The notes beneath the pieces are model-generated. The model was not told the origin of the DNA, did no database searches, and saw nothing but the letters and a program-made list of their open reading frames with translations. Below are positions 27,399-49,846 of a DNA stretch of 64,000 nt, piece by piece (the stretch's first letter is position 1; every line of letters starts with the position of its first letter). The stretch spans positions 372,001-436,000 of the forward strand of contig NZ_BOLN01000002.1 of assembly GCF_016861655.1 (NCBI RefSeq), read 5' to 3'. This DNA comes from Levilactobacillus lanxiensis. GTDB lineage: Bacteria; Bacillota; Bacilli; Lactobacillales; Lactobacillaceae. A program made the position numbers and the translations under genes.

Positions 27399-28439
27399 AT
27401 GAAAACCACCATGTTCATGGAACCTGGAAAAGTTCAAATTGAAGATATTGACAAGCCAACGGTGCAAGCACCCGATGACGTGATTATTCACGTTGTCCGG
27501 ACCTGTGTCTGTGGCTCCGACCTGTGGGCTTACCGCGGGCTTGAAGACAAGGAAAAGCATTCCGAAAACACCGGCCACGAAGCCATCGGGATCGTTGAAG
27601 AAGTCGGCAGTGACATCACGACCGTCCAACCCGGCGACTTTGTTATCGCCCCATTTACCCATGGTTGCGGTCACTGTGCGGCTTGCCGGGCCGGTTTTGA
27701 CGGCGATTGCCAAAACCACACCGACAACTTCAGTAACGGTGTCCAAGCCGAATACATTCGTTTCCAACACGGCGAATGGGCCCTGGTCAAGATTCCTGGC
27801 AAGCCAGCCGACTACAGCGAAGAAATGCTGAAGTCCCTGCTGACCTTAGCCGACGTCATGGCTACCGGTTACCACGCCGCTCGCGTCGCTAACGTTTCCA
27901 CCGGTGACACGGTCGTCGTCGTTGGTGACGGTGCCGTGGGTCTCTGTGGCGTCATCGCTGCCCAAATGCGCGGTGCCAAGCGGATCATCATCATGAGCCG
28001 TCACGAAGACCGGCAAAAGCTGGCCACTGAATTTGGTGCTACCGACATCATCGCTGAACGTGGTGACGACGCGGTTGCCAAGGTGATGGCTATGACCAAC
28101 AACGCCGGTGCCGACGCCGTGCTCGAATGTGTCGGGACGGAACAGTCTAACGACACGGCCATGAAGGTCGGCCGTCCAGGCGCCATCGTTGGCCGGGTTG
28201 GCCTGCCACACGAACCTAAGATGGACATGAGCAGTTCCTTCTACAGCAACACCATCATCGCTGGGGGCCCCGCTTCCGTAACGACCTACGACAAGCAAAC
28301 CTTGTTGAAGGCCGTTCTCGACGGCGACATCCATCCTGGGAAGGTCTTCACGAAGTCCTTCAAGCTGGACGCCATTGACGATGCTTACCAAGCTATGACG
28401 AAGCGTGAAGCTATCAAGTCCTTGGTCGTTGTCGACTAA
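27399..28439 (+). CDS. Zinc-dependent medium-chain alcohol dehydrogenase
   Basis: The 346-residue MDR protein has the catalytic zinc ligands in CVCGSDLW (Cys about 37) and GHEAIG (His-Glu about 61). The structural zinc site CGHCAACRAGFDGDC (about 89-103) has four cysteines. The Rossmann motif is VVVVGDGAVGLCG (about 170). It is a cytoplasmic NAD(P)-dependent alcohol dehydrogenase of the tetrameric Zn type; the substrate could be a short or secondary alcohol. AGGAGG precedes the ATG. The stop codon is directly followed by repeat B1, with the probable terminator 270 bases further on. Confidence 0.93.
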   Translation: MKTTMFMEPGKVQIEDIDKPTVQAPDDVIIHVVRTCVCGSDLWAYRGLEDKEKHSENTGHEAIGIVEEVGSDITTVQPGDFVIAPFTHGCGHCAACRAGFDGDCQNHTDNFSNGVQAEYIRFQHGEWALVKIPGKPADYSEEMLKSLLTLADVMATGYHAARVANVSTGDTVVVVGDGAVGLCGVIAAQMRGAKRIIIMSRHEDRQKLATEFGATDIIAERGDDAVAKVMAMTNNAGADAVLECVGTEQSNDTAMKVGRPGAIVGRVGLPHEPKMDMSSSFYSNTIIAGGPASVTTYDKQTLLKAVLDGDIHPGKVFTKSFKLDAIDDAYQAMTKREAIKSLVVVD

Positions 28440-28660
28440 AAATAGGTTGATCTATTCCGTTCCCGGCGGCGGGCTCAAAGCGCCCTGCTGTGGGGTCGGT
28501 TCCAGCCTGAGGGGCGGGCTTCCACCTCAACTTTGAGCCTGAGAAACGGTCTTAAAGGTTGTCCCGTGGGCTAGGCGGGGAAAACACCCCAGCCTAGCCC
28601 ACCGACACAGCTGGTCACTTTGGCCCGCCTCTGGTCACTAACAATGATCGCCTATTTTCA
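28439..28660 (-). repeat. Structured repeat family B, copy B1
   Basis: It begins at the stop codon of the alcohol dehydrogenase gene. The outer arms are AAAATAGG/CCTATTTT and the core stem GGCGGGCTCAAAG/CTTTGGCCCGCC. An inner hairpin GTGGGCTAGGC-GGGG pairs with CCCC-AGCCTAGCCCAC. A second hairpin is CTTTAAG/CTCAAAG (one mismatch). The orientation is the reverse of A1. It probably sits in the 3' UTR, because the next terminator is at 28707. Confidence 0.85.
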
Positions 28661-28706
28661 GTTTTTCGTATTAACAACGTCATTTAAAATTGATGTATTT
28701 CATTTT

Positions 28707-28756
28707 AAAAGAAGGATTAAGCCAGCAACAATTTGGCTTAATCCTTCTTTTGTTTG
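28707..28756 (+). terminator. Terminator, probably of the alcohol dehydrogenase transcript
   Basis: AAAAGAAGGATTAAGCCA and TGGCTTAATCCTTCTTTT form an 18-bp stem and T-rich end. It is symmetrical and could serve both strands. Confidence 0.8.
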
Positions 28757-28769
28757 TCACTCAACTCAC

Positions 28770-28806
28770 AAAAAGGGCCCGAGAACATCAACGTTCTCGG
28801 GCCCTT
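28770..28806 (-). terminator. Terminator of the F420-reductase-like gene
   Basis: AAGGGCCCGAGAAC pairs with GTTCTCGGGCCCTT. The minus strand ends TTTTTG. Confidence 0.9.
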
Positions 28807-28835
28807 ACTATTTTACTAATCTTCTATTCTACTCT

Positions 28836-29411
28836 TTACTTTAAAACGCCGAAGCCACCGGTCCAGCCAATCTTTTCGCTGGCAGCCAAGGTCATTTGTA
28901 AGAAACCAAAGCTTTCGAGTTCACGCGCACGCTTCAGGGAACCAGCGTCAACGAAGGCCACACCACTGTCGTTCAAGGCGTCGGCTAATTCTTGCTTAGC
29001 AGCGGCGTCATCCCCAGCGGCCATGACAGTCGTTTGGACTTGGTCGCTGACCTTGCGGCTTTGTAACGTTGCGGCGAAGGTCGTGTTGAAGCCCTTAACC
29101 ACCTTGGAATCTGGCAATAAGGCAGCGATTTGTGCGGCTGCGGAACTGTCAGCGGGAACAACTAATTCGTCCCAAGTGTCAAAATTCAATGGGTTGGTAA
29201 TGTCGACGACAACCTTGCCAGCTAAAGCGGCTTGGTTAGCCTTGGCAATGCTCAACGCAGCGTTGAATGGCACAGCCAAAACGACGATTGAACCCAAGTT
29301 TTCAACAGCGTCACCAGCATCGATAAAACTAACCTGGTTCCCACCTTGTGTGAAGACGTCACCGATTGCTTGACCCATGTTACCCTTACCAAAAATTGTA
29401 ATTGCTGCCAT
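28836..29411 (-). CDS. NADPH-dependent F420-reductase-like oxidoreductase
   Basis: The 191-residue protein starts with a Rossmann dinucleotide fold ITIFGKGNMGQAIGDVF (about 4-20), continues with VVLAVPFNAAL and DITNPLNFD, and is the size of the archaeal F420:NADP oxidoreductase and its bacterial homologues. Lactobacilli lack coenzyme F420, so the true substrate is another flavin or carbonyl. An Rrf2 gene lies divergently, and together they look like a redox-responsive pair. The ATG follows a G-rich site (CAGGGGGT). Confidence 0.88.
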   Translation of the reverse strand: MAAITIFGKGNMGQAIGDVFTQGGNQVSFIDAGDAVENLGSIVVLAVPFNAALSIAKANQAALAGKVVVDITNPLNFDTWDELVVPADSSAAAQIAALLPDSKVVKGFNTTFAATLQSRKVSDQVQTTVMAAGDDAAAKQELADALNDSGVAFVDAGSLKRARELESFGFLQMTLAASEKIGWTGGFGVLK

Positions 29412-29467
29412 AATGCAGACCCCCTGATGTGTTTTTGATATTTTGTATTATTTTTAAGTACACTTTT

Positions 29468-29496
29468 AAGATACGTCAATTAACGATTAAAGTCAA
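29468..29496 (-). promoter_or_regulatory. Promoter of the F420-reductase-like gene
   Basis: TTGACT (minus strand, 29491-29496), 17 bases, TATCTT (29468-29473). AAGT-AC-ACTT half-site symmetry at about 29456-29465 could be an operator for the divergent Rrf2 protein. Confidence 0.6.
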
Positions 29497-29725
29497 TGAA
29501 TTCGCTTAAATTAATTTAATCAAACGGTTTTACCTGATTTTTTCACCAAAGTGTTATAGAATATAATACAGAAATGATTTGAAGTTTTCATTTAAAGACT
29601 ATCTGTATTTAAAGTAAAACCGATCAACAATCCAATCCGTCACACTGGCCAACGCAAAAATCAAAGTGGAAAGAACCGGCGCCGACTTATTTAACGCCGC
29701 CACGACTGGTTCTGGGGTCAACCAG

Positions 29726-29914
29726 TGTCAGCCGCAGGGCTGGTGAAAATGGGCTCAGCCGTGGGAGTTGCCTAAGCGGGTCTCCTGCTTAGGCAACTGC
29801 TATCTTTGAGACTCGCTTCTCAGAGGCTCAAAGTAAGTCTGGAGACCGCCCTTCGGCTCCAGACGTGCGCCCACAGCGCCACGGCCCATTTTCACCAGCC
29901 CGGAGGCGCTGACA
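29726..29914 (+). repeat. Structured repeat family A, copy A3
   Basis: The best-preserved A copy. The ends TGTCAGC and GCTGACA pair, then GGCTGGTGAAAATGGGC/GCCCATTTTCACCAGCC and CCGTGG/CCACGG. Three inner hairpins follow: AGTTGCCTAAGC/GCTTAGGCAACT, CTTTGAG/CTCAAAG and GTCTGGAG/CTCCAGAC. It lies between the divergent reductase and Rrf2 genes, 60 bases before the Rrf2 start. Confidence 0.88.
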
Positions 29915-29973
29915 ACGACCAAAGTTAAACCCAAACAAAATGTAACCAAAAAATAAAGGAGGCGCCAAAAAAC

Positions 29974-30405
29974 ATGGCGAACACGCAGTTCAGTGACACC
30001 ATCCACGTCCTAGTCTACATCGCCTACTTCAAAGGCAAAAAAATGACCAGCCAAGAAATTGCCAGCAGTCTAGAAACCTCACCCAGCCTCATCCGCAAGA
30101 TCATGGCCAATTTAAAACGCCACGACCTCTTAGCGCCAACGCACGGGCCGACCCAACTGGCGCTCGCCCGCGAACCGGCGGCCATCACGCTGCGGGACAT
30201 CTACGCGACGCTCCCCAACCAGGCGCCCCTGCTCAACGTGGACACCCATACCTCGCAGAACTGTCCAGTCGGGCAGACGGTACCCAAGGTTTTAACCAAC
30301 TACTACCAAGAGATTCAGGCCGCCGCGGAGGCCAAGATGGCGAAGATCACCCTGCAGGACGTCCTCAATGACGTCACGCTGATGCAACGACTCACCACTG
30401 AGTAA
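29974..30405 (+). CDS. Rrf2 family transcriptional regulator
   Basis: A 143-residue regulator with an N-terminal winged HTH (MTSQEIASSLETSPSLIRKIMANLKRHDLL, about 25-55), the Rrf2 core AITLRDIYATL and a C-terminal dimerisation helix. Only one Cys (QNCPVG) is present, so an Fe-S cluster of the IscR/NsrR type is unlikely; the YwnA/CymR-like group fits better. A thiol-based sensing role is possible. The gene is divergent from the F420-reductase-like gene, the likely target. AAAGGAGG precedes the ATG. Confidence 0.9.
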   Translation: MANTQFSDTIHVLVYIAYFKGKKMTSQEIASSLETSPSLIRKIMANLKRHDLLAPTHGPTQLALAREPAAITLRDIYATLPNQAPLLNVDTHTSQNCPVGQTVPKVLTNYYQEIQAAAEAKMAKITLQDVLNDVTLMQRLTTE

Positions 30406-30412
30406 TTCATTC

Positions 30413-30459
30413 AAATTGCCGACTAATTGCGCTCACAGCCAATTAGCCGGCAATTTTTG
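30413..30459 (+). terminator. Terminator of the Rrf2 gene
   Basis: AATTGCCG.CTAATTG and CAATTAG.CGGCAATTTTT form a long imperfect stem. Confidence 0.85.
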
Positions 30460-30774
30460 TCTCCCCTGTATCACGCGGAGTGCTGCGCCACAATTTACCA
30501 GCAAACGCACCCCACGTTTTGCAGTTGGTGTAGTCACCACGCTAAGCTTAGCCTTCTCATAACTGTCACTACCCAATCCCTGTTACCATACAGTTGCCAC
30601 CGGAGGAGAGCGACACTTATTTAACCCTAACTTGGTTCCCGTGACCAACCATTGCCGGCCAACCCCCGCAAACAGCCCTCTGTCACCCCAGTGCGACCGG
30701 CACCGTTGGCCACCCAACCAAGTCGGTACTTTGTTTGTCAAACTTGGGTCTAACCCAGATTGGAGGAGAAAATT

Positions 30775-31500
30775 ATGCGTGTTCTAAAATTACTGAGTGG
30801 CGTTGGCAGTACTGTGGCCGTCGCCGCAGCCGTGCTGGCCTTGAATCCGTTAGTTGCCGGCGCCGCTGGTCCTGGGACCGCAACCAGTAACTTGACCAAC
30901 GTTTCCAGTGGCTACGTTGCGGACAGCACCGGCAATGCCGAAGCCACGTCCAACGCGGAATTTACGGTGACCCCCGGGACGTTGAGCCTGAACCAGGTGC
31001 CTAACATCATGTTGGGGACCGTCAGTGTTAAAGACATCGCCACGGCCAACACCACGGTTCCGGTCACCAGTGGGGCACCCACTAGTGGAACCGCTTACGA
31101 CGGCAACAATACCGGTACCCTGAACGTGACTGACTTCCGTGGCAACAACGCCGGCTGGTCACTTTCCGTGGGGTTAAGTCCCTTTACCTCGGGCAAATCG
31201 ACCATTACCAACGCGACGTTGAACTTGAATCAGACGCCGGGCACCCTCGACAACAGTGCCACCGCTGCCCCAAGCAGTCTGAAATTAACGCAGTCCGCCG
31301 TCACCAACGGCTGGATCAGCAGTCCACAAACCTTGTGGAACGCGTCCGCTGAAACGGGTGAAGGCAACAACAGCGCCACGACCGCCACGAGCAGTAACTT
31401 ACTGGTCGATCAGCAACCCACCATCGTCGCCGGGACTTACGACGCGACGCTTTACTGGGCCTTACAAAATGCCCCAGCAACCACCACGCCTGCCCAATAG
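30775..31500 (+). CDS. WxL domain surface protein
   Basis: The ATG at 30775 follows TGGAGGAG; the upstream TTG lies inside that site. The 241-residue protein has a signal peptide (cleavage near AGA-A, about residue 30) and is essentially one WxL domain, which binds peptidoglycan non-covalently. The two diagnostic motifs are AGWSLSVGL (about 131) and the C-terminal LYWALQNAP, together with the conserved N-terminal FTVTPGTLSLNQVPNIMLG. It is the first gene of a WxL / DUF916 / WxL cluster. Confidence 0.92.
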   Translation: MRVLKLLSGVGSTVAVAAAVLALNPLVAGAAGPGTATSNLTNVSSGYVADSTGNAEATSNAEFTVTPGTLSLNQVPNIMLGTVSVKDIATANTTVPVTSGAPTSGTAYDGNNTGTLNVTDFRGNNAGWSLSVGLSPFTSGKSTITNATLNLNQTPGTLDNSATAAPSSLKLTQSAVTNGWISSPQTLWNASAETGEGNNSATTATSSNLLVDQQPTIVAGTYDATLYWALQNAPATTTPAQ

Positions 31501-31535
31501 TCATGGACCAGTCATTTGTCAGTTAAATAGTCTGG

Positions 31536-31622
31536 GCTTAGACGCCGTTTGACTACACAGCCGAATGGCGTCTAATACCCGTAGGTCCGGGTTTAACTAA
31601 CACTAAACGTTAGCTAAACCCG
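31536..31622 (+). other. Two hairpins in the gap between WxL and DUF916 genes
   Basis: TTAGACGCC/GGCGTCTAA (31539-31575) and CGGGTTTA.CTAAC/GTTAG.TAAACCCG (31588-31622). Neither is followed by a T-run. They may stabilise or process the operon RNA, giving the first (most abundant) product a longer-lived message. The rest of 31501-31806 shows nothing recognisable. Confidence 0.45.
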
Positions 31623-31806
31623 ATACTTACCGCAACCGGTTAATCTAACTAACCATCTGCGTCGCGATTGGCGCCGGCTTCTGACTAATGTTTGTCTTAG
31701 TTACTCAAGCAGAATCCCCCTAACCGCCTAAACAGTTAAGGTCACCTCACTAAGACGTTTCCCCGCCAACGGCTGCGGTTCACTGATCAAGGAAGGTCGT
31801 GCTGAA

Positions 31807-32892
31807 ATGAAACTCAAATGGCTTTACCCCCTCCTCGCCGCTGGTCTGCTTCTGACGGGGGGACTAGCTGGTGCCGCGCCCGCTTCCGCCGCCAAGGTGC
31901 CCGCCAATTTTGCGGCGACCCCCCTGTTGCCTAAAAATCAGATTTCGACGAAGGCGGGCTACTTCGATCTCAAGGTCACGCCCGGGGCGACCCAGGTGTT
32001 GAAACTGTCGGTGACGAACCCCAGCGACAACACCCGGACCCTTCAGGTCATTCCGGTCAACGCCACCACCGCCGACAGCGGCAACGCCGTTTACATTCCG
32101 TCCAAACGGACCGACGCGTCGGCCCAGACCACGTTTACCAAGATGACGTCGGGCCCCGTCACTATCACGTTGGCCCCGCGCCAGGGCAAGACGGTCACCT
32201 TTCATACCCAGATTCCCACGGCCGGCTTCTCCGGTGAGGTGCTCGGCGGCCTGTTCGTGACCGATCCGCACGCCACCAAGGCGCAAACGGAAAACGGCGA
32301 CGCCTCCGACTTCCGGCTGAACAACCGCTACGCCGAGGTCACCGCCGTGGCGCTTCAGTGTCAGCCCAATCAGACCTTCCGCACCCAGTTGAAATTAGCC
32401 GGTGTCGGCGTGCGGCAACCGAACACCCATCCAACGGCGTTCGCCCGCATCCGTAACCTGACACCCGCCCTATTTGGCCGCATGGATATTGCGGCCCGCG
32501 TCATGCAAAATAGCACGGGCAAGCAGATTGCCACGGAGAACCTCCACAACGGTTCCATGGCGCCCAACAGCTGGTTCGACTACCAGGTCGGCCTTGGCAG
32601 TAAAAAGCTAACGGCCGGCAAGTACACGTTGAAGCTCCACGTCACCAGTGGCAAACGCACGTGGAATTTCAGCGGCACGTTTACCCTGACCCGAAAACAA
32701 ATCGCGGAACACAATTCCGTGATCAAATCTGATGAGCAACCGGCCTACTGGTGGCTCTGGTTATTACTCTTCTTGTTCCTGTCCTTACTGTTGATCATTG
32801 GCGCCTACCTGCTGGGCAAACGGCGGTCACGCGACGATGATGATGACGATGATTCAGACGATTCGCAGTCAACAAACGATACGCACGCGTAA
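31807..32892 (+). CDS. WxL-interacting protein, DUF916-DUF3324 type
   Basis: The 361-residue membrane protein has a signal peptide (LLAAGLLLTGGLAGAAPASA). DUF916 covers about 40-165 (GYFDLKVTPGATQVLKLSVTNPSDNTRTLQVIPVNATT) and DUF3324 about 175-300. One transmembrane helix (WLWLLLFLFLSLLLIIGAYLLG) is followed by the basic KRRSR and a very acidic cytoplasmic tail. Such proteins (WxLIP) bind both WxL proteins and peptidoglycan and are always found in WxL clusters. It sits between two WxL genes, probably as their membrane partner. Confidence 0.92.
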   Translation: MKLKWLYPLLAAGLLLTGGLAGAAPASAAKVPANFAATPLLPKNQISTKAGYFDLKVTPGATQVLKLSVTNPSDNTRTLQVIPVNATTADSGNAVYIPSKRTDASAQTTFTKMTSGPVTITLAPRQGKTVTFHTQIPTAGFSGEVLGGLFVTDPHATKAQTENGDASDFRLNNRYAEVTAVALQCQPNQTFRTQLKLAGVGVRQPNTHPTAFARIRNLTPALFGRMDIAARVMQNSTGKQIATENLHNGSMAPNSWFDYQVGLGSKKLTAGKYTLKLHVTSGKRTWNFSGTFTLTRKQIAEHNSVIKSDEQPAYWWLWLLLFLFLSLLLIIGAYLLGKRRSRDDDDDDDSDDSQSTNDTHA

Positions 32893-32910
32893 GACATGGG
32901 GGTGTTGGAC

Positions 32911-34374
32911 ATGCGCAAATGGCAACGGCAATTAACCCGGCTGGTGATTGGGCTCCTAGTTGGCCTGAGCATCCTCAATATTGGCGTTTCCGCTCAGGCG
33001 GCCAGTACCGCGCCGCAAACGCCGACGTCACCCCCAACGTCGATTCTGGGCATCAACTTAGCCGGGGGCTTCACGCAGGAGCCCATCGACTCCAACCATA
33101 TTTCTGGCGACACGGTGACGTTGTCCGCCAAGGGGACCCGGAACATTTTGGAAGCTCTGACCAACCCCTTTGGCAGTCGGAAATACGTCTGGTGGGAATC
33201 CACGGACGGCGGCAACACCTACAGTAAGGTCGGCTCGAACAGTACGACCTATACGTTTACCGCGCCCCAAGTCAGTGGCGTCACCCACCTGTACTTTCAA
33301 TGTCAATACGACTTTACCGGCATCGGCCTGTTCTACAACGAATGGTCGCGGATCGCCGATGTCATCATCATGCCCGACCGGGTGCCCACGACCAGTATCA
33401 AAGTCACGGCCGACAGCACCGCGTTGTACAACGGTGAAATCACGACGGTTCACGCGACCGTCACGCCAAGCACCGCGACCGACCCCATCACCTGGACCAG
33501 CAGTAATCCGTCGCTGGCCTCGGTCGATGAATACGGGAACGTCGTCGCGGCCGATACCTCAAGCAGCACCGATGGCTTGGCCAACGACCACGGCATCGTC
33601 ACAATTACCGGGTCCAGCAACGGCAAAAAAGATTCCGTCAAAATCATGATTGGGACGCTACAAAACGTCACCGTCAAGGAAGGTAGCGACGCCACATTTA
33701 CCCTCCGAGATCTCCCAGAGGGCATGACCGTTTCCAATTGGTACCGCGTCGAGGACGGCACCGCCACGGCCCTGAATACGACGGACACCAGTTACACCGT
33801 CAACAGCGCTTCCGTGGCCGGCGATAACGGGACCTCGTACTACGCCACGCTGAATTACACGTTAAACGGCAGTACCAAATCGGTCACCACCAACTCAGCG
33901 CTCCTAACCGTGGAAAAGACCGGTCTGCTATCCCTGACGGCGGTCCCGAACTTTAACTTCGGCGGAATCGACGCCGCCACGCTGTGCCAAGGCGACGCGA
34001 CCCTAGACAACATGGATGTCGCCAGCAATGGCAGTAACTACGATGGCAACAACAACGGCTCCCTGACCGTCACCGACAGTCGCGAGACCGGCGGCGACTG
34101 GACGCTCACGGCGACCCTGCCCCAATTCACGTTAGACGGGACCAACAGTAGCCACCTGGGCGCAACCACGCTGGACGTCTACGACCCTGCCGACCGGCTG
34201 GACCAAAACGTGCCGGCCAATAACGAAGCCACCACGATTTACACCTCCAGCGATTACGACGGTCAGGACTTTGACGTCACCGACAGTCAGCTCTTACTGA
34301 GCCAAGATCCGTTGGTGACGGCGGGCGACTACCAGAGCACCGTCACCTGGACCCTCTCCGTCGCCCCAAGCTAG
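32911..34374 (+). CDS. WxL domain surface protein with Ig-like domains
   Basis: The ATG at 32911 follows GGGGGTG by six bases; the ATG at 32896 has no site. The 487-residue protein has a signal peptide (cleavage near AQA-A, about 30), an Ig-like region with WWESTDGGNTYSKVG (about 95), a BIG2-type domain (TSIKVTADSTALYNGEITTVHATVTPS, about 155-250) and a further Ig-like segment. A C-terminal WxL domain ends it (GDWTLTATL; final TWTLSVAPS). It should be wall-bound through WxL and co-expressed with the DUF916 gene, 18 bases upstream. Confidence 0.9.
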   Translation: MRKWQRQLTRLVIGLLVGLSILNIGVSAQAASTAPQTPTSPPTSILGINLAGGFTQEPIDSNHISGDTVTLSAKGTRNILEALTNPFGSRKYVWWESTDGGNTYSKVGSNSTTYTFTAPQVSGVTHLYFQCQYDFTGIGLFYNEWSRIADVIIMPDRVPTTSIKVTADSTALYNGEITTVHATVTPSTATDPITWTSSNPSLASVDEYGNVVAADTSSSTDGLANDHGIVTITGSSNGKKDSVKIMIGTLQNVTVKEGSDATFTLRDLPEGMTVSNWYRVEDGTATALNTTDTSYTVNSASVAGDNGTSYYATLNYTLNGSTKSVTTNSALLTVEKTGLLSLTAVPNFNFGGIDAATLCQGDATLDNMDVASNGSNYDGNNNGSLTVTDSRETGGDWTLTATLPQFTLDGTNSSHLGATTLDVYDPADRLDQNVPANNEATTIYTSSDYDGQDFDVTDSQLLLSQDPLVTAGDYQSTVTWTLSVAPS

Positions 34375-34390
34375 CTTTCCTGTCAATCTG

Positions 34391-34642
34391 ACTGTCTTAG
34401 TGAAAAGTTCGCGGTAACTTATCGTTCCCGCCGGCGGGCTCAAACCGCCCTGCTATGGGGTCGGTTCCAGCCGAAGGGCGGGCTTCCACCTCGATTTTGA
34501 GCCAAAGGACGGTCTCAAAAGTCGTCCCGTGGGCTAGGCTGGGAAAGAACCCCAGCCAAGACCACCGACACAGCTGGGCAGTTTGGCCCGCCTCTGGTCA
34601 CTGACGGCGACCGCGCTTTTCACTAGCCGCCTAACTGACAGG
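34391..34642 (-). repeat. Structured repeat family B, copy B2
   Basis: It begins 17 bases after the WxL gene stop. Outer arms TAGTGAAAAG/CTTTTCACTA with CGCGG/CCGCG inside. Core stem CAAAC/GTTTG within GGCGGGC...GGCCCGCC. Inner hairpins GGCTGGG/CCCAGCC and TTTTGAG/CTCAAAA. The fold is the same as B1 but with different bases in the outer arm. The probable terminator lies beyond it at 34767. Confidence 0.85.
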
Positions 34643-34766
34643 TTGTAGCTCCGAAACACGAACTGGGCTGGTCTATCCCGAAGTGTGTTTGGTTGGACTG
34701 GCCCTGCTTAGATTTGTTGTTGGTCTGTCTATTTGGATTTGACCGACTAGTTATTCTTTCACATCT

Positions 34767-35014: not shown

Positions 35015-35212
35015 ATGAAAAATATGAATACCGAAAACAACTCTAACTTAAATCAATTCATCCAACAAGCAGCTTTGGAACACCATCCCGTCACGGTGCA
35101 TGCAACTGACACCGACGCAACGGCAATCCTGGTCAATCAGGAAGACTGGGCCACGGCTCAAGCAATCATCCGCGCCTCCATCGGCCGAGATGTGCCGTAC
35201 CTGATGGCTTAG
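35015..35212 (+). CDS. Phd/YefM-like orphan antitoxin (small protein)
   Basis: The ATG at 35015 follows CGGAGG. The 65-residue protein has a short N-terminal helix and the segment HHPVTVHATDTDATAILVNQEDWATAQAII, which resembles the Phd/YefM antitoxin core (VTVxxxxxxAVLIxxEDW). There is no RelE/Doc-type toxin gene next to it, so it is either an orphan antitoxin or a small DNA-binding regulator. Residue-level similarity is short, so the call is tentative. It is followed by hairpins that may overlap. Confidence 0.5.
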   Translation: MKNMNTENNSNLNQFIQQAALEHHPVTVHATDTDATAILVNQEDWATAQAIIRASIGRDVPYLMA

Positions 35213-35217
35213 GCCAC

Positions 35218-35362: not shown

Positions 35363-35590
35363 AGTGAAAACGGGTGCTCAATAGTCGTTCCCGCCGGCGG
35401 GCTCAAACCGCCCTGCTATGGGGTCGGTTCCAGCCTGTGAAGCGGGCTTCCACCTCGATTTTGAGCCAAAGGTCGGTCTCAAAAGTCGTCCCGTGGGCTA
35501 GGCTGGGAAAGGACCCCAGCCAAGACCACCGACACAGCTGGGCAGTTTGGCCCGCCTCTGGTCACTGACATGGATCAGCCATTTTACCAA
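35363..35590 (-). repeat. Structured repeat family B, copy B3
   Basis: The core is nearly identical to B2: GGCGGGCTCAAAC/GTTTGGCCCGCC, GGCTGGG/CCCAGCC, TTTTGAG/CTCAAAA. The outer arms GTGAAAACGGGTG and CAGCCATTTTAC pair imperfectly, unlike in most copies. Confidence 0.8.
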
Positions 35591-35646: not shown

Positions 35647-35880
35647 CACACTGGGTCTAGCCCTAACACCAACTCTCGGTCAGAAATCAACCAGGAGTCG
35701 GAGGAAGCCAGGACGGAGACGGCTGTGTCGAGGGTGTTAGTCGGCGTTTTTGAGCCGGCTTACAGCCTGGGACGACCTTTGAGACTTGCGCTTTTCAGCA
35801 AGGCTTAAAGTTGAGGTGGGAGCCCGCCCTTCGGCGGAAGCCGGCCCCACAGCAGGCGTAGTCCTGAAAGCCGCAAGCAG
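35647..35880 (+). repeat. Structured repeat family B, copy B4 (tandem variant)
   Basis: A divergent B copy duplicated 276 bases further on (B5). The closing stem is CAGGAC/GTCCTG (35709 and 35861). Inner hairpins are AGTCGGC/GCCGGCT and CTTTGAGACTTGC/GCAAGGCTTAAAG, plus CCGCC-CTTC-GGCGG. It shares ACGACCTTTGAGAC and the CCCCACAGCAGG end with other B copies. The flank CCCTAACACC...CGGTCAGAAATCAACC is part of the duplicated unit. Confidence 0.8.
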
Positions 35881-35922
35881 CAATTTCCTACCACACTACG
35901 CTACCAACACACCAGAGGCAGG

Positions 35923-36156
35923 TCACTGGGGCTTGGCCCTAACACCAGCTTCCGGTCAGAAATCAACCAGGAGCCGGAGGAAGCCAGGACGGAGACGGCT
36001 GTGTCGAGGGTGTTAGTCGGCGTTTTTGAGCCGGCTTACAGCCTGGGACGACTTTGGAACCTCGCGAACTTCAGCGAGGTTTCAAATCGAGGTGGGAGCC
36101 CGCCCTTCGGCGGAAACCGGCCCCACAGCAGGCGTAGTCCTGGAAGCCGCAGGCGG
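35923..36156 (+). repeat. Structured repeat family B, copy B5 (tandem variant)
   Basis: The second unit of the tandem pair. Closing stem CCAGGAC/GTCCTGG (one pair longer than B4). The variable hairpin has grown to TTTGGAACCTCGC/GCGAGGTTTCAAA, while the surrounding sequence is nearly identical to B4: a compensatory difference between recent duplicates. It ends 40 bases before the stop of the GGDEF gene. Confidence 0.82.
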
Positions 36157-36196
36157 CCAATCATCCACAATCCGCCCCAAACAAGTATAAAAAGGG

Positions 36197-37408: not shown

Positions 37409-37688
37409 TCAGCGCCTCCGGGCCGGTGAAAACTGAACCGGGACGCGGGTTGATGCTTGCCGTTCCCGGCGGCGGGCTCAAAGTGCCCTGCTATGGGGTC
37501 GGTTCCAGCCTGAGAAGCGGGCTTCCACCTCAACTTTGCGCCTGAAAACCGGTCGCAAAGGTTGTCCCGTGGGCTAGGCTGAGTAAGAACCTCAGCCAAG
37601 ACCACCGACACAGCTGGTCACTTTGGCCCGCCTCTGGTCACTGACATCGACCAACTCGGCTCAGTTTCACCAGCCCTGCGGCTGACAC
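37409..37688 (-). repeat. Composite repeat: family A outer arms (A4) enclosing family B core (B6)
   Basis: The outer part matches family A ends (TCAGCGCCTCCGGG.CGGTGAAAA on the left, CACCAGCCCTGCGGCTGACA on the right), with arms GTGAAAACTGA/TCAGTTTCAC. Inside, at about 37462-37646, is a complete B core: GGCGGGCTCAAAG/CTTTGGCCCGCC, GGCTGAG/CTCAGCC, and CTTTGCG/CGCAAAG where other copies have CTTTGAG/CTCAAAG. It shows that A and B are modules of one structure. Confidence 0.85.
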
Positions 37689-41527: not shown

Positions 41528-41775
41528 ATCACCCATCCAAGTGCGGCTGACTCGGCGTCCCACGGCATTGTAAAAATTAACGACCGTGTCAGTGACCAGA
41601 GGCGGATCAAGGTTCCCTGCTGTGTCGATGGCGTTAGCTGAGGTTTCCCACTCAACTTAGAACATGGGACGACCTTTGAGACCGCTCTTCGGCTCAAAGT
41701 TGAGGTGGAAGCCCGCTTCTCAGGCTGGAACCGGCCCCATAGCAAGGCAGGTTGAGCCTGCCGCCAGAAACGGCA
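41528..41775 (+). repeat. Structured repeat family B, copy B7 (tandem unit 1)
   Basis: The core is at about 41587-41775, preceded by the shared flank TGCGGCTGACTCGG and CCACGGCATTG. Inner hairpins AGCTGAG/CTCAACT and CTTTGAG/CTCAAAG. The core closing stem is degenerate here (only TCAA/TTGA and GC ends remain), so this may be the decaying unit. The unit repeats with a 250-base offset. A fragment of the same flank also lies at about 41510. Confidence 0.75.
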
Positions 41776-41779
41776 ACAT

Positions 41780-42048
41780 CAATCACGCAATTGCGGCTGA
41801 CTCGGACATCCACGGCATTGTAAAAATAAGCAACCGTGTCAGTGACCAGAGGCGGGCCAAACTGCCCGGCTGTGTCGATGGCGTTAGCTGAGGTTTCCCA
41901 CTCAGCTTAGGCCATGGGACAACCTTTGAGACCGCTCTATGGCTCAAAGTTGAGGTGGAAGCCCGCTTCTCAGGCTGGAACCGGCCCCACAGCAGGGCGG
42001 TTTGAGCCCGCCGTCGGGAACGAAAAACATCAGTCAGTTTATTTTTAG
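41780..42048 (+). repeat. Structured repeat family B, copy B8 (tandem unit 2)
   Basis: Outer arms TAAAAATAA (41821-41829) and TTATTTTTA (42039-42047). Core stem GGCGGGCCAAACTGCC/GGGCGGTTTGAGCCCGCC. Inner hairpins TTAGCTGAG/CTCAGCTTAG and CTTTGAG/CTCAAAG. The right arm ends directly before the AAAGGAGG ribosome site of the ABC ATPase gene, so a transcript from any upstream promoter would carry the folded element in its 5' UTR. Confidence 0.87.
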
Positions 42049-42064
42049 AAAGGAGGTTGGGCCT

Positions 42065-44000: not shown

Positions 44001-44001
44001 C

Positions 44002-44823
44002 GTGGCCCATCCCATTCGCACCACCCTCTGGTACCTCCTGCTAACGGCGGGCGCCATCCTGATTCTCCTGCCCTTTGGCTGGATGATCATCACTAGTCTG
44101 CAACCGGCCGCAACAACACTGACCGTGACCACGACCTGGCTGCCCAAATCTCTCCGGTGGCTCAACTATTGGCACGTTTGGCAGGCGGCGCCCTTTGCGC
44201 GTTACTGCCTGAATTCCGTGCTGGTGACCGTTGCGACCACGTCAGGCGAGCTGTTTACCAGCCTACTGGCGGCATTTGCCTTCACCCATCTGCGCTTCTA
44301 CGGGCAGCGGTGGCTGTTCGCGCTCATGGTGGCGCTGATGCTGGTCCCCGGTGAGCTCCTGCTCATTCCCAATTTCATCACCCTGGCCCACCTCCGCTGG
44401 ATCAACACCTACGCCGCGCTCATCGTGCCGTGGCTGGCCAGTCCCTTTATGCTGGTCGCCCTTCACCAAGCCTTCAAGGCCCAACCGCAAACGCTGTACC
44501 TGGCCGCGCGACTGGACGGTGCCAGCGACTGGCAATACCTCTGGCACGTCCTGGTGCCTATCAACCGGCCCATCATCACGGCTGTAGCGCTCCTGCAGGT
44601 CATTGGCTCCTGGAACGCCTTCATGTGGCCGCTCATCGTCACCAACACCGACGCGTTACGCACGTTGCCGGTGGGTCTGATGACCTTCACCAGCGACCAG
44701 GGCACCAACTATCCGCTCCTGATGGCCGCCTCCGTTTGCGTCATTTTGCCGTTATTCATTCTCTATCTTGCTTGTCAAAAATACTTAATTCTCGGGGTGA
44801 CCGCATCCCGTTTGAAAGGCTGA
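44002..44823 (+). CDS. ABC transporter permease, UgpE/MalG type
   Basis: The GTG at 44002 lies one base after the previous stop, with a GGGGGGCGG site. The 273-residue protein has six membrane segments, an EAA loop (AARLDGASDWQYLWHVLVPINRP, about 170) and the C-terminal LACQKYLILGVTASRLKG that closes this family. It pairs with the upstream permease to form the channel. Confidence 0.92.
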   Translation: MAHPIRTTLWYLLLTAGAILILLPFGWMIITSLQPAATTLTVTTTWLPKSLRWLNYWHVWQAAPFARYCLNSVLVTVATTSGELFTSLLAAFAFTHLRFYGQRWLFALMVALMLVPGELLLIPNFITLAHLRWINTYAALIVPWLASPFMLVALHQAFKAQPQTLYLAARLDGASDWQYLWHVLVPINRPIITAVALLQVIGSWNAFMWPLIVTNTDALRTLPVGLMTFTSDQGTNYPLLMAASVCVILPLFILYLACQKYLILGVTASRLKG

Positions 44824-44827
44824 TCAC

Positions 44828-46087
44828 ATGAAACACCACTTCCGTCTTCTTCTGAGTCTCACCGCTATCCTGGCCCTGGGGTCGCTGGCCGCCTGTTCCG
44901 GCAAACCGACCACGACCCAGTCCCCACACAAACGGGTCACGCTGACCTTTTGGCACGGCATGACCGGTTCCAGCCAACAGACGCTCAACGAATTAGTTCG
45001 CGGCTTTAACCACTCTCAGTCTAAATATACCGTCGTTGCGAGCGCTCAGGGCAACTTCGCCAACGTCCAACAAAAAATCATGGCCGCCGCCAAGTCTGAC
45101 ACCCTGCCAACCATCGCCCAGACCACGTACACCAACGTGCCCGACTACGTGCATGGTCAATTTATCGTGCCACTAAACGATTATTTGTCGAAACGCACCA
45201 TGGCCCGTATCGACCCCAATCTCCGGCAAGTCAGCTATTACCGTGGGCAAACGTACGCCATGCCATTTTCCAAATCCATCGGCCTGTTATTCTACAACCG
45301 CGACCTCCTCAAGCAGACGCACACGGCTGTGCCCCGCTCCTGGGAGGCACTCCAGCGCGATGCCACCCGGGTCAAGGCTCAGGGGCTGACCGGGCTGGCA
45401 CTGAACCAAAATTTCAGTGCCGAATGGGACACGCTGACCTCTCAGGCGGGTACGCCGCTGATGACGCCCCGGCCGAAGCTCACGAGCCCCAAGATGCTTG
45501 CGGCGACCCACGTGGTCTACGACATGTTAAAGGCCAAGACGGCCACCACAGCGGGGACGGATGGCTACGGCAACGTGCAATTTTTCAAGGGTAAAACGCT
45601 CTTCTACAGTGGTTCCTCGGCCGCGATTGGTGTGCTCCAAACCAGCACGCCTAAGGGCTTTCACTGGGGAACGGCGCCGCTGCCCAGCTATCGGGGCAAC
45701 CGCCACGTCAGTGCCATTCAAGGTAATGATCTGGTCATGTTCAAATCAGCTTCCACGGCCCAACGCCGCGGGGCCGCGGCCTTCATGACCTACCTGCTGG
45801 GCCAAAAACAGACGCTCAAATAGGCTAAGGCCACCGGCTACCTGCCGCTGACCACCCAGGCCTTGAAGAGTCGCGACTACCGGCGTTACCTGACCCAGCA
45901 CCCGGCAGCCAAGGCGACCGTGCAGTCGTTGCCCCACGCTTCACCGGATCCGACCTTCTACGGTTACACGGCTTATCTGAACGCGGTGAACCAAGCGTCT
46001 GACCAGCTGAGTGCCGGCGCCACGACGCCAGAAAAAGCTCTGAAACAGCTCCGACAACAACGCGCGAAACAGTTACGGGCGCAATAG
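44828..46087 (+). pseudogene. ABC extracellular solute-binding protein, UgpB-like, with in-frame amber stop
   Basis: The frame starts four bases after the permease stop. It encodes a lipoprotein signal with lipobox LAAC (Cys about 23), then a family 1 binding-protein fold (LTFWHGMTGSSQQTLNELVRGFN, VPLNDYLSKRT, YAMPFSKSIGLLFYNRDLL). At 45821-45823 a TAG interrupts the frame after 331 residues (GQKQTLK). The same frame then continues with AKATGYLPLTTQALKSRDYRRYL and onwards to 46087. The normal length would be about 418 residues, so the C-terminal helices that close the binding site are lost unless the stop is read through. A CAG to TAG change is the simplest cause. Confidence 0.88.
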
Positions 46088-46211
46088 CCTGGATCTTCGA
46101 GTTAGTGAAAACTAAACCGTGGCTGACATGGCGTTAGCCCGTTACTGGTTCACTGATTTTGCGGACGGTTTGTGGCCCTGTGTCTGGCCTTAATTTAAGC
46201 CGTTGTACTAA

Positions 46212-46260
46212 AAGGACGTTACGTATTGTCTGTTGTTGACAGATAAACGTAACGTCTTTT
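46212..46260 (+). terminator. Terminator of the ABC operon (TCTGT tip)
   Basis: GACGTTACGT/ACGTAACGTC with an inner TCTGT/ACAGA, then TTTTCC. Its tip sequence recurs in the hairpin at 47091-47137. Nothing else is recognised in the remainder of 46088-46308. Confidence 0.82.
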
Positions 46261-46308
46261 CCATATTCAAAATAATAGATAGCTTACTTGATTGAGGACT
46301 AACATAGG

Positions 46309-46989
46309 CTAATTCGCGATGCCTTCCCAAAAACCATAGGCCGTATAGGAAACCACGTTAATGTGCTTGAATTTCCCCGTCTTACCGCCCTTATCGACTT
46401 TCTTTTTCACCGCTGCACCAAATTGCTTCCTCACAATTGGATCAATTGTCCGGTAAAACTTGCGATTTTTCAAGGCATCTTTTCGCGTGTAGACGGACAT
46501 CCCAAACGGGTTAAAACCAGAATAGACCTTTTGGACTGAAGCCTTTTTAGTTCTAGTGAAGATGGTTAAGATAGTCCCGTGTTCTTGCTCATTGTATTGA
46601 ATTAGAACTGGCTTCCCCTTAATGGTCGTCCGGCGAACCGTGCTCAATCCTATGCCATTCAGCAGATACAGTGTCTGCTTATGTATCTTTTTGCCACTTA
46701 ATCGATATGGCGTAAAGTATTGTTCACTGGCAGCACTATAGCTATTACGATCCAAGGCATGCCGATAAGTTGAGATATCAAACTTCTTCGCACTCGCCTT
46801 GATTTTGCGACCCTTACCCTTGTAGCTGGTATACCAGGTTCCCCGAAACGCCTTAGGCAAGCTTGTCAGTTTGTGGGTTTTCACCGCAGCATTAGCGGTT
46901 TCTGGTGCCTGGCTAATCCCGCTGACCACTAAACCCAAGCTCGCCGCCACCAAGGCTGCGCCAATCATTTTCGTTAATCGATTCATCAT
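46309..46989 (-). CDS. Secreted protein of unknown function
   Basis: The ATG at 46989 (or 46986) follows GAGGAGG. The roughly 226-residue protein has a signal peptide (MIGAALVAASLGLVVSGIS, cleavage near ANA-A). The mature part is basic and contains KLTSLPKAFRGTWYTSYKGKGRK near its N-terminus, which matches the PK-x-[LF]RG-x-W core of the two small secreted proteins at 1592-2605. The rest (RKDALKNRKFYRTIDPIVRKQFG) is not recognised. These are probably members of one exported protein family. Identical-tip hairpins flank the gene. Confidence 0.7.
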   Translation of the reverse strand: MMNRLTKMIGAALVAASLGLVVSGISQAPETANAAVKTHKLTSLPKAFRGTWYTSYKGKGRKIKASAKKFDISTYRHALDRNSYSAASEQYFTPYRLSGKKIHKQTLYLLNGIGLSTVRRTTIKGKPVLIQYNEQEHGTILTIFTRTKKASVQKVYSGFNPFGMSVYTRKDALKNRKFYRTIDPIVRKQFGAAVKKKVDKGGKTGKFKHINVVSYTAYGFWEGIAN

Positions 46990-47090
46990 TGTTTCCTCCT
47001 CAAACGAATTCACCTAGTCCGATACCAGATGATGAGTTCAGTATACAAAATGGTGGCGTCACAGTTTGTCGTTTAGGAGAACGTAAGTAA

Positions 47091-47137
47091 AAACGCTACA
47101 TGTTATCTGTTGTTAACAGATACGTGTAGCGCTATTT
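47091..47137 (+). other. Hairpin with the same tip as the 46212-46260 terminator
   Basis: CGCTACA.G/C.TGTAGCG encloses TATCTGT/ACAGATA. No strong T-run follows (GCTATTTTGG). Confidence 0.5.
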
Positions 47138-47244
47138 TGGCACCCAAAATACTGGGAAAAATATTTATTTGATATTAAACTCTATTAAACTCTATTGCAT
47201 AATGGCGGGAACTCAATCAATAACCCGCTAGCCAATCAACCCGA

Positions 47245-47482
47245 CGTGAAAAGTCCCCGGTCGATGTCAGTGACCAGAGGCGGGCCAAACTGCCCAGCTG
47301 TGTCGATGGTCTTAGTAGAGCGAACTTCTCTACTTAGAGCATGGGACAACCTTTGAGACCGCTCTTCGGCTCAAAGTTGAGGTGGAAGCCAGCTTCTCAG
47401 GCTGGAACCGACCCCACAGCAGGGCGGTTTGAGCCCGCCGTCGGGAACGGCAATGACATCGTCCGGGAACGAAATTTTTCAC
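47245..47482 (+). repeat. Structured repeat family B, copy B9
   Basis: Outer arms CGATGTCA/TGACATCG and GTGAAAA/TTTTTCAC. Core stem GGCGGGCCAAACTGCCC/GGGCGGTTTGAGCCCGCC. Inner hairpins GTAGAG/CTCTAC (other copies GCTGAG/CTCAGC) and CTTTGAG/CTCAAAG. The right outer arm overlaps the stop codon of the WYL regulator gene (47479-47481). Confidence 0.87.
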
Positions 47483-48423
47483 TCGTATTGATTCAGTGTG
47501 TGGTGGAGTTCGGACTTAATGCGGTCGACCAGCGACACCGGCGACAACACCTTCAGCCCCGCGCCCTGACTCATCAGCCACAGCAAGGCCCCGTCAACTT
47601 TAACGAAGGCCTCGATCACAACACTGCCATCCGCATTTTGCTTGACGACCCGTGAACCGGGAAAGTGGTCCAGCGCCGTTTGCACATAGTTATGATACTC
47701 GAAACGAATCTGCGTCAGTGCCCCCGAATCTATCAAATAGGTATAGTTGCGGTGTTCCTGTAGCGAAAAACGTTCGGCGTAGTCGAGGTGATCTCCCGGT
47801 AGCGTATCTAAAATGTCTCCCATCCTGTCCAGACGGTAGAGCCAGTAGCCGTGGTGCTCTTCGCTCAGCATAGCAACGTAGAAGTAGTAGGTCTCGAAGA
47901 ATAGCGCCACCGGCTGGGCATGGTGAACCTGCAGTTGAGAATTGTTGTGACTGCTACTACGGTAGGTGAAAACCATTTTCTCCGTGCGCACGATGCTGGC
48001 CGCAACTTCCCGCAACCGGTGTAGCAGTGGCTTGGCGCGGGATAACGGCACGTAACTGCCCCGCGACAAAATTAATTGTTGCCGGACCACCGCCTGCATC
48101 ACGGGCGATAGGCTACTGCTGATGTAATCCAAGGTCGCCGTCAGCTCGTCTTGGTCTAACGCACGAGACCCCAACAGAATGTTGCTCATCGTTAAAACCA
48201 TTTCCACGTCGGTCTCTTCACTCTGGCGGGCCAGGCGGTAGGTGCCGTCGTGTTCCACCAGGTCACCCGCCGCATACTCCGACAGTGCCCTGCGCACGTA
48301 TGAAAAGTCCCGCTGACACGTCCGTCGACTGATATGATATTTTGTTTCCAAATCGCTCTGCTTCAGCGTTTCACCGGACATTAACTGGACCATGAGCTCT
48401 GCAATTCGTTGATTACTCTGCAC
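47479..48423 (-). CDS. HTH-WYL domain transcriptional regulator
   Basis: The GTG at 48421-48423 follows GGGGTG. The 314-residue protein has an N-terminal HTH of the DeoR/HTH_11 type (IAELMVQLMSGETLKQSDLETKYHISRRTCQRDFSYVRRAL, about 7-47). A central WYL domain (about 140-230) includes VHHAQPVALFFETYYFYVAML and YRLDRMGDI, and a C-terminal WCX-like part completes it. WYL proteins often respond to DNA damage or nucleotide ligands, and some control defence systems; none is adjacent here. It may be autonomous or regulate the quinone-reductase gene upstream. Confidence 0.9.
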   Translation of the reverse strand: MQSNQRIAELMVQLMSGETLKQSDLETKYHISRRTCQRDFSYVRRALSEYAAGDLVEHDGTYRLARQSEETDVEMVLTMSNILLGSRALDQDELTATLDYISSSLSPVMQAVVRQQLILSRGSYVPLSRAKPLLHRLREVAASIVRTEKMVFTYRSSSHNNSQLQVHHAQPVALFFETYYFYVAMLSEEHHGYWLYRLDRMGDILDTLPGDHLDYAERFSLQEHRNYTYLIDSGALTQIRFEYHNYVQTALDHFPGSRVVKQNADGSVVIEAFVKVDGALLWLMSQGAGLKVLSPVSLVDRIKSELHHTLNQYE

Positions 48424-48499
48424 GTGCCGTCACCCCGCTTTCTCCCAATTTCGTTAACCCTCATTATACCAGCAACATCTGGAAAACTCGCAACCAAAT

Positions 48500-48532
48500 T
48501 AAAAGCGGCCACCCCGCAGAGTCGCCGCCTTC
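48500..48532 (-). terminator. Terminator of the quinone-reductase-like gene
   Basis: AAGGCGGCGAC, loop, GGTGGCCGCTTTT on the minus strand. Confidence 0.65.
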
Positions 48533-48534
48533 GT

Positions 48535-49542
48535 TTACTTATCGAATTGAATGAGCACTTTACCTTTAGGACGGCCATTTGCGACCAAGTCCAAGGCTTT
48601 GTTAATGTCAGTCAAATGGAACACCGTGGGGTCAATGGCGGGTTCAATCTGATTCTCTTCGACTACCCGCGTGATTTCCCGCAACTGTTCGCCATCGCTG
48701 CGTACGAAGATGAATCGGTAATCGGCACCCACGCTTGCCGCTTGCTTATCGAAGTTGCGGCCGGCTAGGGCAAACAACGCCGTCTTCCACCAAGATAACT
48801 GGTGATCTTTAGCAAATTGCCGGTTAGGTCCCATCCGTAGGGACAGCACGCGGCCACCTGGCTTCAAAATTTGCAGTTCATGGGCAAATTCTTTCGGCCC
48901 AAGCGTGTCGATCACGTAGTCGACTGACGATAACTTTTCCCAGTAATTTTCTTGACGGAAATCAAAGTAATTCGTCGCACCCAACGCCATGACGCCCGCT
49001 CTGGCCTCGGCATTACCACTAACGCTGACTTCCAATCCCATCTGTTTGGCCAACGGAATAGCCATTTGACCAAAGGAACCGGAACCACCCGGGATCATCA
49101 CGGATTGACCGGACTTGGCGCCCAGCTCTTCGTGAAGACCTTGGTAGGCGGTCAACCCAGTCAACGGCACGGCTGCCGCGTGGGCAAAATCGAGGGTCTT
49201 GGCCATTGGCGCTAACGCTGCTTGGTCCACGGCCACGTATTCAGCGAAACCGCCCTGTTGTGGCAAGGGTAACCGGGCGTAAACGGCATCGCCAATCTGG
49301 TAATCATCGACGTTGGCTCCAACGCCCATCACTTCACCGGAGATTTCATTCCCCATCGTGACTGGCATCTGGTAGTCTTGAATCAGCTTAACGCTCCCGG
49401 TACCGATCAACATTTCTAAGGGATTCACGGCCGCATAGCGCACCTTGACCAACACCTCATTGGCGCTGGGCGTGGGCGTTGGAACGTCCCGCACCACGAG
49501 TTTGAATTTCTTGTCATACTTGTCTAATTGGGCTGCTTGCAT
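48535..49542 (-). CDS. Zeta-crystallin/quinone oxidoreductase-like MDR enzyme
   Basis: A 335-residue medium-chain dehydrogenase without zinc-site cysteines: the catalytic Cys position is Val/Met-rich (NPLEMLIGTGSV), as in quinone oxidoreductase. The cofactor fold begins SVMIPGGSGSFGQMAIPLAK (about 148). It probably reduces quinones or enones with NADPH. It is divergent from a TetR gene across an intergenic region containing repeat B10 and a palindromic possible operator, so TetR control is likely. Confidence 0.92.
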   Translation of the reverse strand: MQAAQLDKYDKKFKLVVRDVPTPTPSANEVLVKVRYAAVNPLEMLIGTGSVKLIQDYQMPVTMGNEISGEVMGVGANVDDYQIGDAVYARLPLPQQGGFAEYVAVDQAALAPMAKTLDFAHAAAVPLTGLTAYQGLHEELGAKSGQSVMIPGGSGSFGQMAIPLAKQMGLEVSVSGNAEARAGVMALGATNYFDFRQENYWEKLSSVDYVIDTLGPKEFAHELQILKPGGRVLSLRMGPNRQFAKDHQLSWWKTALFALAGRNFDKQAASVGADYRFIFVRSDGEQLREITRVVEENQIEPAIDPTVFHLTDINKALDLVANGRPKGKVLIQFDK

Positions 49543-49598
49543 GTTATTGGCTCCTCCCCGACCTTGGTCGGTATCTTTAGTTTATTATCTTTTGTTTT

Positions 49599-49846
49599 GG
49601 TTAAAATGGTCTACCGTGACGCGTGATTCCGTTTCCGACGGCGGGCTCAAGGCGCCCTGCTGTGGGGCACGGTTCCGGCCTGTGGGGCGGTCCTTCACCT
49701 CGCCTTAAAACCTCGCAAAGTTCGCGAGTTTCCAAGGTCGTCCCGTGCTCTAAACTGAGAAAAACACTCAGTTAAGACCACCGACACAGCTGGTCACCTT
49801 GGCCCGCCTCTGGTCACTGACACTGACCTCACTGACCATTTTCACC
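49599..49846 (-). repeat. Structured repeat family B, copy B10
   Basis: Outer arms AAAATGGTC/GACCATTTT (perfect). Core stem GGCGGGCTCAAGG/CCTTGGCCCGCC, where other copies have CAAAG/CTTTG or CAAAC/GTTTG: both strands of the helix changed together. Inner hairpins TAAACTGAG/CTCAGTTA and a long CCTTAAAAC...GTTTCCAAGG with CTCGC/GCGAG. It lies between the divergent quinone reductase and TetR genes. Confidence 0.88.

Follow-up and report, generated by a model that had tools for sequence, protein, structure and literature searches.

BOX elements of Streptococcus pneumoniae are small intergenic repeats with a predicted RNA fold and partial expression that seem to have spread in the past and now insert slowly at new sites. 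They are modular (boxA, a variable number of boxB, and boxC), carry insertion-sequence-like terminal inverted repeats, and are found in pneumococcus, in fewer copies in S. mitis and seldom in the remaining streptococci, as described in passages of PMC3049150. For the small RNA (sRNA) SSRC8 of S. pyogenes, Northern signals are reported in the parts of PMC3675131 that deal with it. Here we describe a family of folded repeats in Levilactobacillus lanxiensis, starting from a 64,000-nucleotide stretch of contig NZ_BOLN01000002.1 (positions 372,001 to 436,000, hereafter the window; its genome is G000). An original prediction, made from the sequence letters of the window, had proposed ten copies of a structured repeat between positions 28439 and 49846.

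The copies have a common fold whose stems covary, and one strand of each is the folded one. They are polar toward genes, are conserved in place, and in related species can be of different subtype at the same place. Our preferred reading, held with about even confidence, is that the family consists of structured RNA elements that once spread, are now mostly held in place, and act in cis at gene boundaries.

The element is about 145-200 bases long. Subtypes A, B and C are built alike: a long stem closes the structure, followed by a core stem and three arms, and the internal loops are rich in purines. To measure covariation we aligned 33 sequences (alignment A2), namely 28 of the 30 loci recovered from G000 by DNA search and five window copies; two loci without an exact map-back and both subtype C window copies were left out, and the window copies at 28458, 35386 and 37461 are included as loci L005, L020 and L001. 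The fold model for A2 was drawn by hand and has 62 pairs, and the controls were shuffles (500) and slid partner strands. Pairing was found in 95.8% of 2046 cells, and 23 of the 62 pairs had two-sided changes. The covariation score was 0.197, compared with 0.100 in shuffled alignments (none of the 500 reached it) and at most 0.051 with a slid partner. One measure of five was not above its control, the number of further pair types, which was 44 versus 42.6 in shuffles and was reached by 151 of the 500.

Two more distant alignments, both fitted to the model, which favours it (A2 was not), gave covariation as well. Alignment A4, with 81 sequences from five genera, was paired in 90.2% of 4782 cells, with two-sided changes in 59 of the 62 pairs (1229 such cells) and a score of 0.622 versus 0.180 shuffled and at most 0.093 slid. 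For the genome G434, which belongs to another family, the alignment of 14 sequences (one of them partial) was paired in 92.6% of 748 cells; two-sided changes occurred in 48 of the 62 pairs, and the score was 0.474 versus 0.137 shuffled (reached by no shuffle of 500) and at most 0.076 slid. In most G434 copies the letters of the outer stem and of the first arm differ, with pairing preserved, and these copies look old and individually kept. Covariation, as expected of a conserved structured RNA, is above both the shuffled and the slid controls in all three alignments, apart from the one measure named for A2. The stem variants named in the original prediction are all present, its core stem corresponding to A2 columns 22-28/171-177, its first hairpin to columns 42-56/66-80 and its second to columns 85-98/113-124, and the selection on base pairing that it proposed is supported by the covariation in A2, in the five-genus A4 and in G434. 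A candidate pseudoknot, pairing GGG after the first arm with CCC before the core stem, was set aside, as it is too invariant for a test and the tallies were mixed.

Copies were searched with two covariance models. R1 is based on 33 copies of G000, of which eight lie in the window, and R2 on 81 copies (25 from G000 and 56 from other genomes, in five genera). The window has 13 copies, the ten predicted ones and those at 6360, 26010 and 29726. All match R1, and their R2 scores are 97-178 bits. Eight of the predicted copies (28458, 34423, 35386, 37461, 41587, 41837, 47265 and 49630) score 154-223 bits with R1, those at 35720 and 35965 score 81-83 bits, and the three additional ones 44-63 bits. The places are as follows, with G012 and G026 denoting close relatives.

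6360-6541, plus strand: subtype A element, outside the predicted range; R1 62.5 bits, R2 114.8 bits; repeat extent 6268-6541.
26010-26190, minus strand: subtype A element; R1 44.4 bits, R2 97.1 bits; repeat extent 25999-26198.
28458-28643, minus strand: subtype B element; R1 215.3 bits; 3' end some 19 bp away from the stop codon of a dehydrogenase gene at 27399-28439.
29726-29908, plus strand: subtype A element, not among the predicted ten; R1 55.2 bits, R2 107.3 bits; repeat extent 29720-29919.
34423-34606, minus strand: subtype B element; R1 205.8 bits; antisense, past the stop of 32896-34374.
35386-35570, minus strand: subtype B element; R1 211.7 bits.
35689-35882, plus strand: subtype C element (predicted at 35647); R2 119.4 bits.
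35965-36158, plus strand: subtype C element (predicted at 35923), in tandem with 35689-35882; R2 124.3 bits.
37461-37646, minus strand: subtype B element, the best model match; R1 222.7 bits; 95.7% identity with the copy at the orthologous site in G026.
41587-41772, plus strand: subtype B element, first of a tandem pair; R1 154.3 bits.
41837-42022, plus strand: subtype B element, second of the tandem pair, before a gene starting at about 42066; R1 204.6 bits.
46095-46125 (approximate), no strand: place of a lost element; only a left-arm piece is kept in the window, and a B element is present in G012 and G026 (alignments), so that the place looks like a deletion.
47265-47449, plus strand: subtype B element; R1 206.1 bits; antisense, past the stop of 47479-48423.
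49630-49822, minus strand: subtype B element with a longer second hairpin; R1 171.8 bits; site empty in relatives.

Each of the ten predicted places holds a copy, as R1 matches all of them. The predicted start points identified the right copies but lie up to about 60 bases outside the cores, the outer arms having been included. Treating the ten as one set agrees with their common covariance model and fold, but 35689-35882 and 35965-36158 are a separate subtype, and the number ten was too low: even the 13 are a small fraction of the genome's copies. In 456 kb of one G000 contig, R2 found 112 copies (E 1e-9 or better), about 246 per Mb, which extrapolates to about 740 copies in 3.03 Mb if the density is uniform. 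R1 on the whole of G000 gave at least 150 copies, all those listed scoring above 150 bits.

The genome-wide and Lactobacillaceae searches that the original prediction had called for were made with the covariance models, and the fold also occurs in other families of Lactobacillales. Within the genus, R1 matched 32 of 35 genomes under strict filters, with none to at least 45 matches per genome, and 0 of 23 genomes from other families; in the family Lactobacillaceae, matches were present in 57 of 301 genomes, belonging to 10 of the 40 genera. In an order-wide sample of 295 genomes R2 matched 18, of which 12 are members of the same family and six come from three other families, and a closer search of ten genomes (R2, E 0.01) had matches in eight, some of them weak (G377 from 2e-4). 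G021 and G031, which have no R1 match, had none with R2 at E 0.01 either. The phosphoketolase of G000 is 98% identical to those of L. enshiensis and L. koreensis, in line with a Levilactobacillus host. Among named loci, 78 of 80 were searched (Weissella confusa L215 and L252 were left out), and 23 matches fell in 11 loci, belonging to ten Levilactobacillus species including L. brevis and to Lactiplantibacillus dongliensis; in L. brevis ATCC 14869 a copy is present at L187:16011-16167. No description of the repeat family in Lactobacillaceae was found in the literature covered, which excluded preprints.

The composition of the pairs identifies the folded strand. G-U pairs exceeded A-C combinations in A2 (61 versus 12 cells) and A4 (236 versus 59), at copies facing stop codons (183 versus 64) and at copies facing start codons (108 versus 34), and single changes between orthologues led to G-U 62 times and to A-C 31 times (binomial p=0.0017). 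The folded strand has its 3' end toward the gene. For five copies worded on the plus strand in the original prediction, it is the reverse strand that folds best (alifold -73.9 versus -55.7 kcal/mol). The excess of G-U over A-C indicates that one strand is folded, which fits RNA or single-stranded DNA and argues against a double-stranded cruciform; of the two forms first proposed, RNA or a cruciform, the former fits. A double-stranded DNA element, such as a cruciform palindrome, a binding site for nucleoid proteins or gyrase, or a supercoiling insulator like the BIMEs of E. coli, would account for a partial palindrome with many intergenic copies near gene ends. We nevertheless consider it improbable, as a cruciform folds both strands and predicts no G-U excess, and as the opposite strand, where it was reported, scored 27-42 bits with R1 versus 154-223 bits for the folded strand.

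RNA is favoured because a Streptococcus sRNA model in Rfam overlaps three distant copies on the same strand and because Northern signals exist for the sRNA so named. At gathering scores, Rfam 15 had no match in the 64-kb window, and at E up to 10 one B copy gave only a chance match to a small nucleolar RNA. Permissive searches with the B copy and 20 further loci gave chance matches except for T-box, SpR19 (below threshold) and SSRC8_2 (RF02616), the last of which overlaps copies L166, L171 and L173 at model positions 152-209, 145-210 and 152-209. From its name and the matching positions, RF02616 probably models SSRC8 of S. pyogenes. The claim that no known RNA class is involved thus stands for the window at Rfam gathering thresholds, but SSRC8_2 is a partial, sub-threshold relative.

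To profile the placement of the copies relative to genes, we called genes by a hexamer score of our own, which yielded 373 genes in the 456 kb with rough start positions. Of 115 R1 copies, three overlap a gene call; among the remaining 112, the 3' end was nearer a gene in 107, at a median distance of 65 bp versus 445 bp for the 5' end. The same held in intergenic regions with a single copy (49 of 52). The 109 full-length R2 copies comprise 65 that face a stop codon (median 35 bp), with the folded strand antisense to the gene, and 44 that face a start (median 83 bp), with the folded strand in sense. With cruder gene calls than in G000, polarity was also seen in G013, another species of the genus (16 of 19 copies; 20 of 37 matches were fetched and one had no gene call), and in G434 (13 of 13 among 14 matches), often a few bases from the stop codon. 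This strict polarity is a new observation.

Opposite-facing pairs were also considered as the two ends of a larger transposon, given that six of nine close pairs are divergent among the 150 strong copies listed. The idea was dropped because polarity is also present in regions with a single detected copy. By eye and without a count, a hairpin followed by a T-run was seen beyond the element in at least three copies (L127:14347, L128:4484 and L133:5230, upstream sides, G000:C2), where the element seems to lie between the stop codon and the gene's terminator.

Polarity also bears on two other explanations. A cis-regulatory leader (riboswitch or attenuator) would suit the 44 copies that face a start codon in sense, as well as two distant copies (L171 and L173), single ones in two genomes of another family that look Streptococcus-like by their genes. 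They lie between purL and purF and between glyQ and glyS, in front of the second gene each time, the genes being named from sequence. The 65 stop-facing antisense copies, a majority with the same strand asymmetry, refute a leader as the general explanation, and we regard it as very improbable. That terminator hairpins or chance repeats were mistaken for a family has in its favour that half of the stop-facing copies are no more than 35 bp away from the stop codon. It is refuted by the covariation, and the branched fold with conserved junctions, E-values down to 1e-51 and copies at orthologous sites leave it a negligible probability.

We then compared positions between genomes. Of the 112 copies, 70 could be mapped to G026 and 13 to G012, and a copy in the same orientation was present at 67 of the 70 and at all 13 mapped sites (80 of 83 together). 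Two G026 copies and one G012 copy each serve two tandem copies, so that the 83 sites have 77 distinct copies as counterparts; one of the three non-matching sites is a deletion in G026. The tandem site 41587/41837 has a single copy in both relatives. Among the 67 G026 matches, 46 are at least 78% identical, with a median of 93.8% (flanks 90.4%, genes 93.4%), and 15 are below 70%, comprising 11 that switched subtype, two diverged C-C pairs, one cut at a border (94.6% when taken whole) and one with a target shared by a tandem. In 30 unshared G026 comparisons (at least 90% identity), pairing survives 11 double changes and is lost in 4, with 1.2 double changes expected by independence; when G012 and shared targets are included (40 comparisons), the numbers are 20 and 5.

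Subtypes differ at 11 of the 65 distinct G026 copies, with A, B and C all exchanged. Many B copies are bordered by outer arms (…GGTGAAAATGGGCC…GGCCCATTTTCACC…) that are similar to the stem closing subtype A, and in alignment the 26010 site has an A core in the window and a B core in G012 and G026 beside the same left outer arm. In G020, searched by BLAST with three representatives only, subtypes also differ at corresponding places, and A and B are in tandem near the counterpart of 26010. The site at 49630 is empty in several loci. Taken from one conserved block to the next, the interval separating its divergent genes is 387 bp in the window, compared with 43-45 bp in L186, L189 and L242, and L185 likewise has a shorter intergenic region without the element. 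These lengths would allow an insertion of about 340 bp as one old event. No target duplication of 2 bp or more was visible by eye against L186, L189 and L242, at this one empty site compared.

These comparisons are central to the main rival, a selfish non-autonomous mobile element whose folded strand serves only its own movement, either as RNA or as single-stranded DNA handled by an HUH enzyme. The copies would be insertions without excision, and polarity would come from the insertion mechanism. We consider this possible but short of probable. The many dispersed copies in subtypes and the element-free interval at 49630 agree with it, and the strand asymmetry suits single-stranded DNA as well as RNA. 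The two ends of the element pair imperfectly with each other as the closing stem, much like the imperfect inverted ends of a transposable element, and a link to such an element is conceivable, most insertion-sequence families lying outside the search. The refuting cases named in the original prediction did not arise in that form, there being no Rfam match in the window and the branched fold exceeding two paired ends. A Y1 transposase (Y1_Tnp) is encoded in 23 of the 35 genus genomes including G000, but the copy-rich G012 has no Y1 match, and a reverse transcriptase (RVT_1) is present in only 10 of the 35 and absent from G026. No mobiliser was found, as neither enzyme tracks the R1 counts; IS110, TnpB, IscB and DDE enzymes were not searched. 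The rival also has to accommodate sites that are nearly static in close relatives and yet differ in subtype, same-type copies conserved like genes with pair-keeping double changes, the lack of a visible target duplication at the one empty site compared, and the lack of any match for one subtype B copy and its flanks in plasmid or phage collections.

Under the reading of a structured RNA acting in cis, the family would have spread across Lactobacillales chromosomes as small interspersed repeats. The working strand would be the one with its 3' end toward the neighbouring gene. At gene starts the element would be within the leader RNA, and at gene ends transcription would run from the intergenic region toward the stop codon, antisense to the gene. 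Its role in cis may be, for example, to separate the transcription of neighbours or to protect or process transcript ends. Our confidence in transcription in the host and in action at gene boundaries is evenly balanced. A more specific form, genome-wide RNA punctuation in which copies are anchored by their 3' ends to gene starts and stops and selected singly, with subtypes exchanged in a homing-like manner more often than moved, is in our view rather doubtful.

Several observations weigh against a cis-acting RNA. In the 30 unshared G026 comparisons, single changes keep pairs 29 times and break them 32 times; the near balance of the two outcomes indicates moderate constraint per copy. Compensatory change could be mimicked by gene conversion between copies, which would also explain the subtype differences. 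The element is not essential, given the range from none to at least 45 matches within the genus and the two genomes without an R2 match. A simple promoter scan was uninformative: strong upstream matches preceded 3 of the 35 copies that face a start and 3 of the 55 that face a stop, close to the 2 and 2 on the opposite strand. It is also hard to see what purpose would be served by RNA running antisense to so many gene ends. The SSRC8_2 overlaps reach 33.7-49.1 bits, compared with a gathering score of 72, and cover 58-66 bases.

The flanks were also searched for complementarity. In G000, pairing between the two flanks of one copy is more extensive than between flanks taken from different loci. 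This was measured on 109 of the 112 copies, and the Mann-Whitney p values, roughly 1e-8 to 1e-11 depending on the subtype, are too small because the cross pairs reuse loci. The complementarity reaches about 50-60 bases and also involves the final 20 bases of the adjacent gene (p=7e-10, n=42), and there is no overall signal beyond 45 bases (p=0.54). It was not replicated in 55 copies of other genomes (p=0.42 nearest the element), in G013 (p=0.92) or in G434 (p=0.56). Matched flank changes were few in 31 orthologous pairs (5 kept versus 13 broken), and 5' flank positions changed in 9.4% of cases when paired versus 20% when unpaired (210/1046). We leave the flank complementarity as a feature of this lineage that carries no further argument.

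Elsewhere in the window, a small reading frame at 35016-35211 looks by eye like a Phd-type antitoxin, and no toxin that could partner it was recognised in the vicinity. Two large surface-type proteins are encoded at 11270-14407 (KxYKxGKxW signal and Ig-like domains) and 54014-55858 (DUF5776).

If transcribed and functional, the element would be unusually abundant for a structured RNA of a bacterial genome, at about one per 4 kb in the 456 kb analysed, in hosts that include ordinary food bacteria such as L. brevis. Its polarity offers a direct test of the role that small interspersed repeats such as BOX and REP play at gene ends, and the subtype differences at the same sites in close relatives point to some exchange mechanism. 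Among known systems, REP/BIME, ERIC and Correia repeats have shorter or simpler folds, and we know of none with a branched conserved core facing genes on both sides. Like the element, they are numerous intergenic folded repeats, which may alter transcript ends or processing (in part from passages of PMC3049150). SSRC8_2 is presented as one sRNA and not as a repeat family in the relevant parts of PMC3675131, and the window copies do not match it. BOX shares with the element its nature as small, interspersed, intergenic repeats that are predicted to fold and seem to have spread in the past. The two are set apart by description and not by sequence: the 33 A2 copies align over their full length without a repeated module, and the element, unlike BOX, is non-modular, has a three-arm fold, occurs in several families and is strictly polar toward genes.

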